Under the pieces are notes generated by a model that searched no databases, was not told where the DNA came from, and saw only the letters and a list, made by a program, of their open reading frames with translations. A program made the translations under genes and the position numbers. Shown piece after piece: positions 1-24,513 of a stretch of DNA of 31,468 nt. Every line of letters begins with the position of its first letter. Position 1 is the stretch's first letter. Source of the stretch: a virus; the IMG/VR virus record IMGVR_UViG_3300044826_000310, positions 1 through 31,468 of that record. One strand, written 5' to 3'.

Positions 1-855
1 CTACGGCAGCGCATCCGCCGCACGCGGGGAAATCCACAGCACCTCGGTGCGTGGTTGTCGCAAAACTCCCACAGCAAAATGCGCCCGCTCCACCCGCCGC
101 CACCCCACCAGCATCTCGTCGTACAGCGCGGACGGGTATCCGGCCAGCACCACCATCCCCTTGCAGCCCAGTAGCACCTCCAGCAGCTCGACATGCTGTT
201 GCGTGGTCAGCTCATGCCGGTAGCCTGTGTCGGATCGAGTGGAGGGGACGTAGGGGGGATCGACGAAATGCAGCGTCTGGGGCGTGTCCTGGGCTTTGAT
301 CACGGCCAGCGCATCACGGCACTCGATCACCACGCCTTGCAGCCGACGCCGGACAGCCACCAAGCTGCGCGGGTACGTGACCCATTCGCCGGCCTTGCCC
401 CTGCCTGACCCCGTGCGGTGCCGCGCGTCGGCAAACGACCGCTTGCGCGGATCGAACACCGATGCGTGGTGAAACGACAAATAGGCGCGAATGATCGTGC
501 GCTGAGCCGTCACCACCGGATCGGTAGACGACATGAACGCCTGGTCAAACTCGGCGCGGGCGTAGGGTGTGCGGCGCAGCTTGCGCATCAGCGCTGCGCA
601 TTGCATCGGGTCTTGGATGACGCGGAACAGCGACACGATCTCACTGTCGAGGTCGTTGTAGACCTCAATCTCGCTGCGGGTCTTGCGCATCAGCACGCTG
701 GCCGCGCCACCAAACGGCTCGACGTAAATGCGGTGGGGTGGAAGGTGCCGAAGCACCCACGGGGCAATCGCCCACTTGCCTCCAAAGTAGCGCAGCACCG
801 CCCGCTTGGGGCCATCAGCGGCCAAGCTGGCCGGTTTGGTTGTCGTCTGGTTCAC
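1..855 (-). CDS. D12-class DNA adenine N6-methyltransferase (in mom position)
   Basis: Predicted to transfer a methyl group from S-adenosylmethionine to N6 of adenine in phage DNA, a likely anti-restriction modification. The 284-residue product shows the Dam/D12 layout: YFGGK at residues 23-27 and VEPFGGAAS at 45-53 (SAM binding, motif I), NDLD at 67-70, and the catalytic DPPY at 199-202. The start is GTG at 853-855, with GAGGA about 7 nt upstream; the next in-frame ATG would remove the SAM motif. The gene overlaps the end of com by 41 nt in another frame, as mom overlaps com in Mu. The GTG lies in one arm of an 8-bp hairpin, which suggests translational control by Com. The stop codon is the first triplet of the window, so the gene is complete. 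Sequence specificity (GATC or other) cannot be read from the sequence. Confidence 0.93.
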   Translation of the reverse strand: MNQTTTKPASLAADGPKRAVLRYFGGKWAIAPWVLRHLPPHRIYVEPFGGAASVLMRKTRSEIEVYNDLDSEIVSLFRVIQDPMQCAALMRKLRRTPYARAEFDQAFMSSTDPVVTAQRTIIRAYLSFHHASVFDPRKRSFADARHRTGSGRGKAGEWVTYPRSLVAVRRRLQGVVIECRDALAVIKAQDTPQTLHFVDPPYVPSTRSDTGYRHELTTQQHVELLEVLLGCKGMVVLAGYPSALYDEMLVGWRRVERAHFAVGVLRQPRTEVLWISPRAADALP

Positions 856-1024
856 AGAGCCGTCCTCGTTGATGAGTCGCTCTGTGGCGATCGGGGGATT
901 GCGGGATCGTGTCCCTGGTCACGTCGCACATGGTGCCGCATCGCGGGCATTTGATTTGCACTCGGCCGATAAACCGTGCACGCGCCAGCAGCTTGTTACA
1001 GCCGCACCTGATTTCCTCATTCAT
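815..1024 (-). CDS. com: Com-family zinc-finger translational regulator
   Basis: A 69-residue protein resembling Mu Com (62 residues), an RNA-binding zinc-finger protein that activates translation of the downstream modification gene. It starts EEIRCGCNKLLARA and continues to IKCPRCG, giving zinc-ligand cysteines C7, C9, C26 and C29, with another at C33. The C-terminal half is polar and without known domain. The reading frame is open 35 codons further upstream, but family members begin just before the first cysteine pair, so the ATG at 1022-1024 is chosen; its ribosome binding site is weak. The gene overlaps the start of the methylase by 41 nt, which fits translational coupling. Expected role: derepress the methylase late in infection. 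Confidence 0.85.
   Translation of the reverse strand: MNEEIRCGCNKLLARARFIGRVQIKCPRCGTMCDVTRDTIPQSPDRHRATHQRGRLCEPDDNQTGQLGR
853..886 (-). promoter_or_regulatory. Hairpin enclosing the methylase ribosome binding site and GTG start
   Basis: On the minus strand CACAGAGC (879-886) and GCTCTGTG (853-860) are perfect reverse complements separated by 18 nt. The loop holds the GAGGA ribosome binding site and the 3' arm ends in the GTG start codon. In Mu the mom start is likewise held in an mRNA stem-loop that Com opens. The pairing is seen directly; the control role is inferred from the adjacent com-like gene. Confidence 0.6.
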
Positions 1025-21194: not shown

Positions 21195-22355
21195 TCAGAC
21201 TCCCGTGATGACGTTGCCATCGACCTTGGCCATGCCCGCCAATGCGGCGGCATTCATCGCGCGGGCCACCAAGTTGTTGACCACCAGCGGGTGGCAGATG
21301 CTCACGCGCTCACTGGGGCGGCCACGCTCGGGCACGCGGATCAAGCGGGCGCGGATGGCGTCGTAGGCATCCGGGGCCAGCACGTCATCCACCTGGGCGC
21401 CGGCGCGGGCGAACTTGTGGCGCAGGTAGGCCTCCAGGTCGCCATCGAGCGCGGGCAGATGCACCAGCTCGCAGCGCTGCACCACTTCGCGCACCTCGCC
21501 GCTGCGCTCGCTCAGGCGGGTGGCCAGTTCGGGCTGGCCGATCAGCGCGATGCCAATGAGGCGCGAGAGGCCGTCCTTCAACTCCGCAAAACGCTTGAGA
21601 TGCTTGAGCGTGGGCACGGGCAGGCTGTGGGCCTCCTCGATCAGCAGCAGGTGGCTCTGGCCGGCGCGGCGGCTGGTGCGCAGCACCTCATGCACCTGGG
21701 CGAATCGGGCCTCGGGGCTGCTCTTGCAATGCGCCGTGGGCGTGAGGGTGCGGATGATGGCCTCGGCGATGGCCGGGGCGCGCAGAGGCTTGCCGCGTGA
21801 TTCACTCTCTTCCATCGCCAGCACGTAGGGACGGATGACGCTCACCGGCTTGTTTTCGTCGATGACCCGCTGTTCCAAGTCTTCGGCCAGGGTGCTCTTG
21901 CCCGAGCCGCTTTCGCCAACGATGGCCACGAACGCGTGATGCAGCGCGGCATCCAGCAGCACGTTGCGCACGTAGCGGATGGCGCCGCTGGCGAACACGT
22001 CATCGCGGGTTTGCACGTCGTCGCGGAAGGGGTCGCGTGCCAAGCGGAACGCCATCTTGGTTTTCTGGTTCAGGTTTTCGCATCGCAGCAGCATGGTGGT
22101 GTCCTCGGGATCGGTGGGGGTGGCAGTGGGTTGGCTGGCGTCTTCGCCAGCGGTAAATAGGGGGCGCAGGTCTTCAGGCTTTGCGCCGTGGTCGGTCAGG
22201 AACTTGGCGGCAGCGGCGCGCACTGCCGGGGCGTTGCGGGTGGGCCACTGGCCCTTGCTGACCAGCCGGCTGGTGGTGGCCTTGCCCAGGCACAGGGCGC
22301 GAGCCATGTCGGCCTGGCTGGTGCCGAGGCGGGCGAGGAGGGGTTGCAGGCTCAT
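21195..22355 (-). CDS. MuB/TnsC-type transposition ATPase
   Basis: A 386-residue AAA ATPase that would bind target DNA and activate the transposase. Residues 1-55 are a helix-turn-helix like that of MuB (LLARLGTSQADMARALCLGKATTSRLV). Walker A is GESGSGKST at 147-155, Walker B LLLIEE at 236-241 followed by AHSL, and sensor 1 IALIGQPEL at 269-277. A C-terminal helical part follows (LRHKFARAGAQVDDVLAPDAYDAI). The ATG overlaps the stop of the preceding small gene. MuB also gives target immunity in Mu; the same is expected here but not shown. Confidence 0.93.
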   Translation of the reverse strand: MSLQPLLARLGTSQADMARALCLGKATTSRLVSKGQWPTRNAPAVRAAAAKFLTDHGAKPEDLRPLFTAGEDASQPTATPTDPEDTTMLLRCENLNQKTKMAFRLARDPFRDDVQTRDDVFASGAIRYVRNVLLDAALHHAFVAIVGESGSGKSTLAEDLEQRVIDENKPVSVIRPYVLAMEESESRGKPLRAPAIAEAIIRTLTPTAHCKSSPEARFAQVHEVLRTSRRAGQSHLLLIEEAHSLPVPTLKHLKRFAELKDGLSRLIGIALIGQPELATRLSERSGEVREVVQRCELVHLPALDGDLEAYLRHKFARAGAQVDDVLAPDAYDAIRARLIRVPERGRPSERVSICHPLVVNNLVARAMNAAALAGMAKVDGNVITGV

Positions 22356-22687
22356 GGCTTCACCGCCTTCCAGGGTTCCGCGCTGTGATGCGCGATGAAC
22401 TCCATCCGGTTGGAAAAAACCGCTTCACGATCTGGCGGCAGTGCATGCTCTTTGGGCTGCCGCTTCGCTGTGTTTGCCCTGTAAATGGCCAAACCTGCGC
22501 ACCTGCTGCCAGCATGAACGTGGCACTCCACAACATGATCTGAGTGGCACAGCCGGGCGTATTCCTCCGGGGTGCTACCCCCGAGCCAACCATTCAGCGA
22601 ACTGCGCAGCAGCGGGCAATCACTGCATGCTTTCGTCAGTTGACTGCTGGCCGGGCTGGCCTCACCTCTGGTGATCAGCTTGCGCAT
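22352..22687 (-). CDS. DUF6283-like cysteine-rich protein between transposase and ATPase
   Basis: A 111-residue protein with GGAGG six bases before the ATG at 22685-22687, which overlaps the transposase stop. It contains KACSDCPLLRSSLNGWLGG near residues 18-36, STPEEYARLCHSD, VECHVHAGSRCAGLAIYRAN, a pattern with four or five cysteines and two histidines that may bind a metal. This resembles DUF6283. It is located between the two core transposition genes, where Mu has none. Confidence 0.65.
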   Translation of the reverse strand: MRKLITRGEASPASSQLTKACSDCPLLRSSLNGWLGGSTPEEYARLCHSDHVVECHVHAGSRCAGLAIYRANTAKRQPKEHALPPDREAVFSNRMEFIAHHSAEPWKAVKP

Positions 22688-24513
22688 CACACACCTCCAT
22701 TCACAATCCGCAGGGCCGGCGGTGCCGGGCGCTCCAGGCGGGCTTTAAGGTCATCGAGCTGGCTCTCGGGCACACCTTGCGGGTGCCACTGGTTCACCAG
22801 GGCGTTGCGCTCGGGCGTCATCTCCACGCCCTTGCTCACCAGCCAGCGGGCCGCTTCGAACGTGTTCAGCAGCCGGTCATCCGTGGGCGGCTGGTACAGC
22901 GGACGCAGCGGCGTGGGCGGCGGCGGGGCCACGGTCACGGGGTCGGGCATGTGCTCGCCACGGCGCGGCAGGAAGTCCACCGCCCCGGCCTCCACCCCGT
23001 CGAAGGGGTTGATGCGGCCACCGAACGGCGTGTAGTCCTTGCGGCGGCGCAGCTTGTCGGCGTCCTCCAGCGTCTTGGCACCGGTGGCCAGGTAGGCCAG
23101 CTCTTTGCGGTGCTTGTCGGCGACGGTGTCGGCGGGGCGCCCGTAGTCCTCGAAGAACACGTTGCCGCCACGCACAAACCGCCCGCCGTCGTCCATGCGC
23201 TCCACCAGTTGGCAGGGGTAGAGGGTTTCGTGCCCGTCCTGGTCGGCATCCACCACGAACACCTGGGCGGTGTCGTAGGGGTTCCAGGTGACGGCCAGCT
23301 TTTCGCCCACCATCACCCCAGGCACACCCGACACATCCCACGACTTGCCGCCGAACTCGACCCACAGCCGATCCGTCACGGTGCGCCGCTCCGGAGCGTG
23401 GGTCAGCAGCGTGCGGCACATCTCCACGCTTGGCGGGATGCGCAACTGCTCTGGCTGGATGCCCTGCCACACGGCAAACCGTGTCTTGCCCGTGCGGCTG
23501 TGGATGTGAGTGCTGTTGTAGCTGGCCATCCAGATGCCGGCCAGTGCGTTCAACTCCTCCAAGCTCTCCACCTTCGGTGCAAAGCGCAACCAGGCTTCAA
23601 ATTGCGTTTCGACAATGTTCTGGGCGTTCTCCACCTGGCCAGTGGCCCGCGCTTGCCGGGGGGCGTGCGCCTCGATCCGCACATCCAACCGGCGCAGCAG
23701 GTTCTTGGTGGTGCCGGCGGTGTTGGCACTGCCGGGGTCGCAATAGATGCCCACAGGCACGCCATGCATGGGGATGCGGTTGCCCTTGGGCTGCATCGCC
23801 CAGATGAGCGCCTCGGCCAGGTTGATGCCGCTCTCAGCCCCGAGCACGTAGAACACCAGCACCGCGCCGCTGTAGTGATCGGTGATGACGTAGCGCCACA
23901 CGCGGGACTGGGCAATGCGATCCAGGTTGGCCGGCTTGTTCTTGTAGAACTCGTCGTGATCCGCCACGCGCAGGCCGGAATCCTTGCCCTTAGCACCCTT
24001 CAGGTAGAACAGCACACACAAGCTGGCATCCACCTGCCACACATGGTTCGGATGCAGGCTGCGCATGGACACCGCCGGGGCGGGCCGCAGCATCTGATCC
24101 GGGTGGAGCTTGTAGGTGCGCAGTGCCCGAGCAATCGCCGAGATCGACAGCTCGCGGATCACGCCATCGGCATCCACGAACTCAGCGCGGATGTTCCCCG
24201 TGCGGCGCAGTGTGGTGACGGCCTCCAGCACCGACACCAGGCGCTTCTCGTTCTTCCGCATTCCCTCCAAGATGAACGCCGAGATCAACGCGGCCTCATC
24301 GCGCTTGAGCGATGTCTCCCCCGCATCAGATCGGCGCTTGCGTTCCGGTTTCACAGTGACCTCCTTCAGTGCTCTCAAGAGGGTGGCTCTGGACATCCCC
24401 AGCTCGGTGCAAGCGGCTGCGTAGACCGCTTCTTTCCCACCGTGCTGGGCCTGGGCTGCTGCCTGGGCGATCTGCACCAGGCGCTCAATCAGTGCGGGGC
24501 TGCGTGTGGCCAT
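22687..24513 (-). CDS. MuA-type DDE transposase
   Basis: A 608-residue transposase that cuts phage ends and joins them to target DNA, for both integration and replication. Residues 10-50 contain a helix-turn-helix (YAAACTELGMSRATLLRALK). The rve core begins HPNHVWQVDASL; candidate catalytic residues are D162 (QVDAS), D259 (IYCDPGS) and E295 (TGQVENAQ), the last pair separated by 35 residues. After the core, WVEFGGKSWDV and VTWNPYDTAQVFV form the usual beta-barrel. The C-terminal 100 residues, which in Mu contact the ATPase, hold a Pro-rich part. The gene is somewhat shorter than MuA (663). Start ATG overlaps the membrane protein gene by 25 nt. Confidence 0.95.
   Translation of the reverse strand: MATRSPALIERLVQIAQAAAQAQHGGKEAVYAAACTELGMSRATLLRALKEVTVKPERKRRSDAGETSLKRDEAALISAFILEGMRKNEKRLVSVLEAVTTLRRTGNIRAEFVDADGVIRELSISAIARALRTYKLHPDQMLRPAPAVSMRSLHPNHVWQVDASLCVLFYLKGAKGKDSGLRVADHDEFYKNKPANLDRIAQSRVWRYVITDHYSGAVLVFYVLGAESGINLAEALIWAMQPKGNRIPMHGVPVGIYCDPGSANTAGTTKNLLRRLDVRIEAHAPRQARATGQVENAQNIVETQFEAWLRFAPKVESLEELNALAGIWMASYNSTHIHSRTGKTRFAVWQGIQPEQLRIPPSVEMCRTLLTHAPERRTVTDRLWVEFGGKSWDVSGVPGVMVGEKLAVTWNPYDTAQVFVVDADQDGHETLYPCQLVERMDDGGRFVRGGNVFFEDYGRPADTVADKHRKELAYLATGAKTLEDADKLRRRKDYTPFGGRINPFDGVEAGAVDFLPRRGEHMPDPVTVAPPPPTPLRPLYQPPTDDRLLNTFEAARWLVSKGVEMTPERNALVNQWHPQGVPESQLDDLKARLERPAPPALRIVNGGV

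Follow-up and report, generated by a model that had tools for sequence, protein, structure and literature searches.

The window, by which we mean the whole stretch of viral DNA analysed (31 468 nt, IMG/VR record IMGVR_UViG_3300044826_000310), comes from a transposable phage; the contig carries a transposase gene (22687-24513) and a gene for a DNA transposition protein (21195-22355). On its minus strand a com gene overlaps a DNA methylase gene, and the following features were located there (hairpin loops in brackets).

1024-815, minus strand: com, 69 aa, ATG start at 1024, a zinc-ribbon RNA-binding regulator by its PF10122 and PHROG matches
915-903, minus strand: E1-like hairpin, GGGA[CACGA]UCCC, occupying the position of the first Com site in relatives
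890-877, minus strand: candidate Com-site hairpin E2, UCGC[CACAGA]GCGA, fitting CC(N)3GAG; identified by motif and kept in L254, the nearest relative
886-853, minus strand: translation-inhibition hairpin (lock), 8-bp stem 886-879 / 860-853 with an 18-nt loop; identified by sequence, folding and comparison with L254
867-863, minus strand: Shine-Dalgarno sequence GAGGA within the lock loop, 7 nt 5′ of the start, identified by sequence
855-1, minus strand: D12-class DNA adenine N6-methyltransferase gene (PF02086), GTG start at 855-853, 284 aa

The original prediction, of a Com-like zinc-finger gene overlapping a D12 methylase gene, was borne out by both protein families. The Com protein matched Pfam family Zn_ribbon_Com (PF10122) with 40.3 bits against a curated cut-off of 22.9, and its PHROG match is described as translational regulator / gpCom; the methylase matched MethyltransfD12 (PF02086) with 69.4 bits, phrog_56, and Dam chains in PDB (E 2.5e-10). 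The overlap is 41 nt long, com ending at 815, 38 nt beyond the methylase GTG. The four cysteines of Com include a first knuckle of CxC type (RCGC, window 998-1006) and not CxxC, which also sets it apart from Com of Mu; the CxC knuckle is common to the Com proteins of the window and of L254 and occurred in no other fetched locus, and zinc binding by the window Com is putative.

Upstream of com, no GATC occurs between the stop of the preceding gene (1165) and the com start (1024), i.e. in 1025-1164; at the level of sequence the expected lack of a GATC cluster, and with it of the Dam/OxyR layer of Mu, holds. The nearest GATCs are at 905 and 889, inside com, and at 1270 and 1275, inside the preceding gene, whereas Mu (locus L057) has GATCs upstream of com at positions 1660, 1678 and 1691 of that locus. 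The same intergenic region has a 26-nt inverted repeat, GCCACCGGTGCTGGAGCACCGGTGGC (1125-1150), and L254 has a different, similarly strong inverted repeat in its place; judging by its sequence, the repeat may be terminator-like, lacking a T-run, or a regulator site. A 29-nt block, TGCAGAAGGAGCTGCAAGCCGGCCAAGGC (1086-1114), is identical in L254, with flanks that differ; it is a possible promoter or ribosome-binding element.

In the lock, the 5′ arm CACAGAGC (886-879) faces the 3′ arm GCTCTGTG (860-853), which holds the GTG start, across the loop GACTCATCAACGAGGACG (878-861); a perfect 8-bp stem over the GTG with the ribosome-binding site (RBS) in its loop had been claimed, exactly as found. Folded alone, the hairpin has a minimum free energy of -15.8 kcal/mol, and in three sequence contexts its stem pairs with a mean predicted probability of 0.985-0.987. 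A perfect stem of at least 8 bp over the start appeared in 0.17% of shuffles of the upstream bases, and such stems cover 7 of the 1066 potential starts with 90 open codons in the window; an equal stem was produced by 6% of synonymous-codon shuffles of com, a figure explained by the methylase side having been held fixed. By these chance figures the lock stem alone is only moderately unlikely. Comparison with L254, whose methylase is 82% identical to that of the window, settles the point that the chance figures alone do not: all 16 of 16 stem bases are kept, with com 5′ of the lock diverged, and on this comparison of sequences we consider the stem real. Conservation of the stem in relatives that keep com next to a methylase, which had been put forward as a check, is what we observe in L254. 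An intrinsic terminator was also considered for the lock hairpin and rejected, as it has no T-run and lies inside two overlapping genes.

Work on Mu and SELEX experiments gave the Com recognition motif as a hairpin loop containing CC(N)2-3GAG; the Com hairpin of Mu is situated immediately 5′ of the translation-inhibition structure with the mom GUG, and the motif was bound in vitro by another Com than that of the window (PMC6483171). In the window, a further hairpin, E2, is of this kind; it was overlooked by the original prediction and is more telling than the lock. The loop of E2 together with the first two bases of its 3′ arm is the lock 5′ arm; as the two structures share CACAGAGC, the E2 hairpin and the lock are mutually exclusive. 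The block GATCGCCACAGAGCG.CTCA.CAACGAGGAC.GCTCTGTGA, which comprises E2 and the lock, is nearly unchanged between the window and L254, unlike the com stretch between the CPRC codons and E2, which has diverged. Both loci use AGA for the Arg codon in the stem, although AGA accounts for only 5 of the 379 Arg codons counted in ten genes of the window. The lock is evident from sequence, folding and comparison, and the Com site from sequence and comparison. In the E1-like hairpin, the closing pair is A-U instead of C-G, and L254 lacks this hairpin. Our first reading of it as a compensated Com site was shaken by this loss; because of the closing pair and the lack of conservation we do not rely on it, and the hairpin is possibly the remnant of a Com site.

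With the Com proteins of the window, Mu, B3 and Chuche as queries we collected 227 com loci, 89 without near-copies, among which 85 had a com tail long enough for hairpin tests. A repeat search of viral contigs with the Com alignment gave the 55 loci of the first one again; a profile search of genome contigs with this alignment and three PF10122 surveys at class or phylum level added few extra loci, Com being rare in the sampled genomes (5 of 369, 6 of 289 and 14 of 247). Strict Com-site hairpins, defined as C[CN2-3GA]G with a stem of at least 4 bp, numbered 109 in the 85 loci, as compared with 3.9 expected (at most 11 in 200 synonymous-codon shuffles); two or more such hairpins were present in 39 loci, 0.08 being expected from the shuffles. 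A scan independent of the motif detected a four-pair stem exactly 19 nt 3′ of the CPRC codons (61 of the 85 loci) and a stem at offset 41 (38 loci), any other offset accounting for no more than 8. In an alignment of 61 sequences, two-sided (compensatory) changes were observed at all 8 base pairs, with helix 1 paired in 99.6% and helix 2 in 87.7%; none of 500 shuffles reached any of five covariation measures. The covariance model made from the alignment matched loci outside the training set (L018, L032 and L086). A search of Rfam 15 at gathering scores gave no family match in the window, Mu or seven relatives, and the papers searched for com-methylase RNA elements yielded only Com-RNA biochemistry and genome annotations.

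Com hairpins are kept by the com genes of L175, L182 and L195, although their contigs, which may be partial, yielded no methylase of the D12 or N6/N4 type. Loci L106-L111, from genomes of the phylum of genome G005, encode Com-like zinc-ribbon CPKCG proteins followed by a gene for no recognised modification enzyme; most have no strict Com hairpin or too short a tail (L107 is the exception), and these proteins are possibly a different subfamily.

The cost of opening the Shine-Dalgarno sequence and the start behind com was above the synonymous-shuffle null in 46 of 61 loci (mean +2.4 kcal/mol, Wilcoxon p = 8e-8), the downstream starts being chosen by a rule that may be wrong in some loci; weak or wrong-looking choices (e.g. 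L030 and L043) were retained, which works against the result. Forcing the Com hairpins to form reduced the mean opening cost in the 61 loci from 10.1 to 6.5 kcal/mol (in the window, opening RBS and start costs 14.1 kcal/mol, and 6.3 with Com hairpins forced), and blocking the Com-hairpin region relieved the start more than in shuffled controls (p = 5e-6). When RBSs were swapped between loci, the mean opening cost went from 10.3 down to 7.7 kcal/mol; pairing of the RBS to an arm of a Com hairpin, present in 34 of 52 loci, was retained in 20.2 on average (maximum 26, 30 trials). Among 62 loci, the second Com hairpin provides the anti-RBS strand in 16, most strongly in the window, and the first one does so in 19, including phages of the B3 and Smp131 types, in which GGAGGC can lie opposite GAGCCUCC; 27 of the 62 have weak or other pairing in the model and no strong pairing of RBS to Com hairpin. 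A natural control was available in methylases of the window's clade, which we found via the methylase rather than com and split into com-bearing and com-less: opening the methylase start costs 12.2 kcal/mol in 18 com-bearing loci versus 6.7 in 12 com-less ones (p = 2e-5; p = 1e-4 before four loci with divergent Com proteins, recognised on inspection by eye, were reassigned to com-bearing). Both the nulls and the com-less homologs thus support the idea, already present in the original prediction, that the methylase start is held as in Mu mom.

The window is like Mu com-mom in that com overlaps the regulated gene, the GUG start is in the 3′ arm of a stem with the Shine-Dalgarno sequence in the loop, and a C[CN2-3GA]G Com site is just 5′ of the lock or overlaps it (PMC6483171). 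It differs in several respects: the enzyme is a D12 methylase (PF02086) instead of Mom (PF25680), an upstream GATC cluster is missing, and many relatives have two Com sites. Furthermore, all of the lock's 5′ arm is shared with the Com site in the window. In Mu, Com site and lock are neighbours that overlap slightly, and the computed opening cost hardly changes (9.4 to 8.9) when the Com hairpin is forced. The Pseudomonas transposable phage B3 and its relatives also have com followed by an overlapping adenine-methylase gene, and tandem Com-site hairpins; in B3-like phages, however, it is the 3′ arm of the first Com hairpin, GAGCCUCC, that is the anti-Shine-Dalgarno strand, whereas the window uses the second hairpin. 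Escherichia phage Chuche has a Mu-like lock, CCCCAC..GUGGGG, around a GUG start, but its enzyme is an N6/N4-type methylase, and instead of a Com hairpin with a 4-bp stem it has one short motif site, as in Mu.

Five types of protein were found behind com: D12, N6/N4 and C5 methylases, a protein with ABC-type ATPase and GNAT acetyltransferase parts, and Mom (PF25680), the latter in L105 and L244, where the Com hairpins occur in tandem. On the tree of the Com zinc domain, which is short and mostly unresolved, there are about 28 changes of enzyme type; well-supported branches alone account for at least 7 changes involving N6/N4, 4 involving C5 and 4 involving Mom. The proposal that the regulator was kept while the modification enzyme was exchanged is therefore supported, and in a broader form. 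The exchange itself is already partly known. Drozdz and co-workers reportedly described in 2012 Mu-like prophages in which adenine methylases have replaced mom; in the FluMu and Pnme1 prophages, non-specific adenine methylases (Hin1523, Hia5, Nma1821) are said to occupy the mom position, a likeness to the window, and we know of no RNA element from the description of these enzymes. B3 and KS5 have been annotated as carrying com and a methylase (PMC3091744).

The ABC-type ATPase/GNAT protein follows com in L003, L004, L053, L056, L062, L071, L078 and L245, often separated from it by a small gene; such com-linked genes are possibly an undescribed DNA-modification module. In phage Komp_PAO1_1 the next gene is annotated as phosphoribosylglycinamide formyltransferase.

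We consider it probable that a translational switch operated by Com prevents synthesis of the phage adenine methylase as long as Com is lacking. By sequence and folding, CACAGAGC of the free message pairs with GCUCUGUG and buries the Shine-Dalgarno sequence and the GUG start; Com made from the same message would bind the nascent E2 hairpin ahead of transcription of the lock's 3′ arm, and Com-bound E2 would leave the methylase start exposed. The predicted cost of switching from lock to E2 hairpin in the window is ∼8 kcal/mol, so the switch probably acts during transcription; according to the model, Com would have to come in while the second arm of the lock is still unmade. Ribosomes that translate com through the lock may contribute to its opening, or may suffice alone. 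Com binding at this locus, exposure of the start and delayed methylation are what we infer; the delay would make methylation late, as would suit an enzyme protecting packaged phage DNA that could harm a lysogen. Other phages have the same principle wired via one or the other of their two tandem Com hairpins.

Plain translational coupling, in which ribosomes on com melt the lock and methylase is made in proportion to com with no contact between Com and RNA, seems unlikely to be the whole account, though it is the most serious competitor. The 41-nt overlap, with the lock wholly within com, is what coupling would use, and buried starts in overlaps are common among coupled phage genes. Left unexplained by it are the covarying Com-recognition hairpins, the match to the SELEX motif (PMC6483171) and the overlap of lock and Com site; coupling and the Com switch may also operate together. 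That the hairpins are autoregulatory sites, at which Com limits its own translation or affects the stability of its message, with the hairpin at the methylase start being incidental, would agree with their position inside com and with L175, L182 and L195, where they are kept in possibly partial contigs with no methylase. We find this quite improbable: it is the opening cost of the downstream start that is specifically raised, and it is low in com-less homologs; also, the target of Mu Com is mom (PMC6483171). Chance origin from GC-rich coding sequence and conserved protein motifs of the Com tail may be dismissed: although the stem of the window is matched by 6% of synonymous shuffles, protein-preserving shuffles fall short of the observed hairpins >25-fold, and the two-sided changes at every pair already contradict it.

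The Com-operated switch proposed here follows the logic of Mu com-mom and is a widespread variant of it: the enzyme is a different one, Com site and lock share a single strand, and a tandem-hairpin element occurs in many com-bearing phages. Mu com-mom has so far been a classic yet isolated case of an RNA-binding zinc finger that activates translation, and target recognition by Com has been disputed (PMC6483171). The dozens of Com/target pairs collected here constitute a natural experiment in which covariation fixes the recognition hairpin, and the comparative data show Com sites and ribosome-binding site competing for one strand. We are inclined to think, with some reserve, that tandem Com hairpins with anti-RBS 3′ arms form a widespread, so far uncatalogued family of RNA switches that are operated by a protein and placed ahead of exchangeable DNA-modification genes, the uncharacterised ABC-ATPase/GNAT protein included. 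If so, the element points to unknown DNA-modification systems and could be used as a marker for such genes in phages. As the regulator persists through replacements of the DNA-modifying enzyme, the data suggest that delayed expression, whatever the chemistry, is the property under selection.
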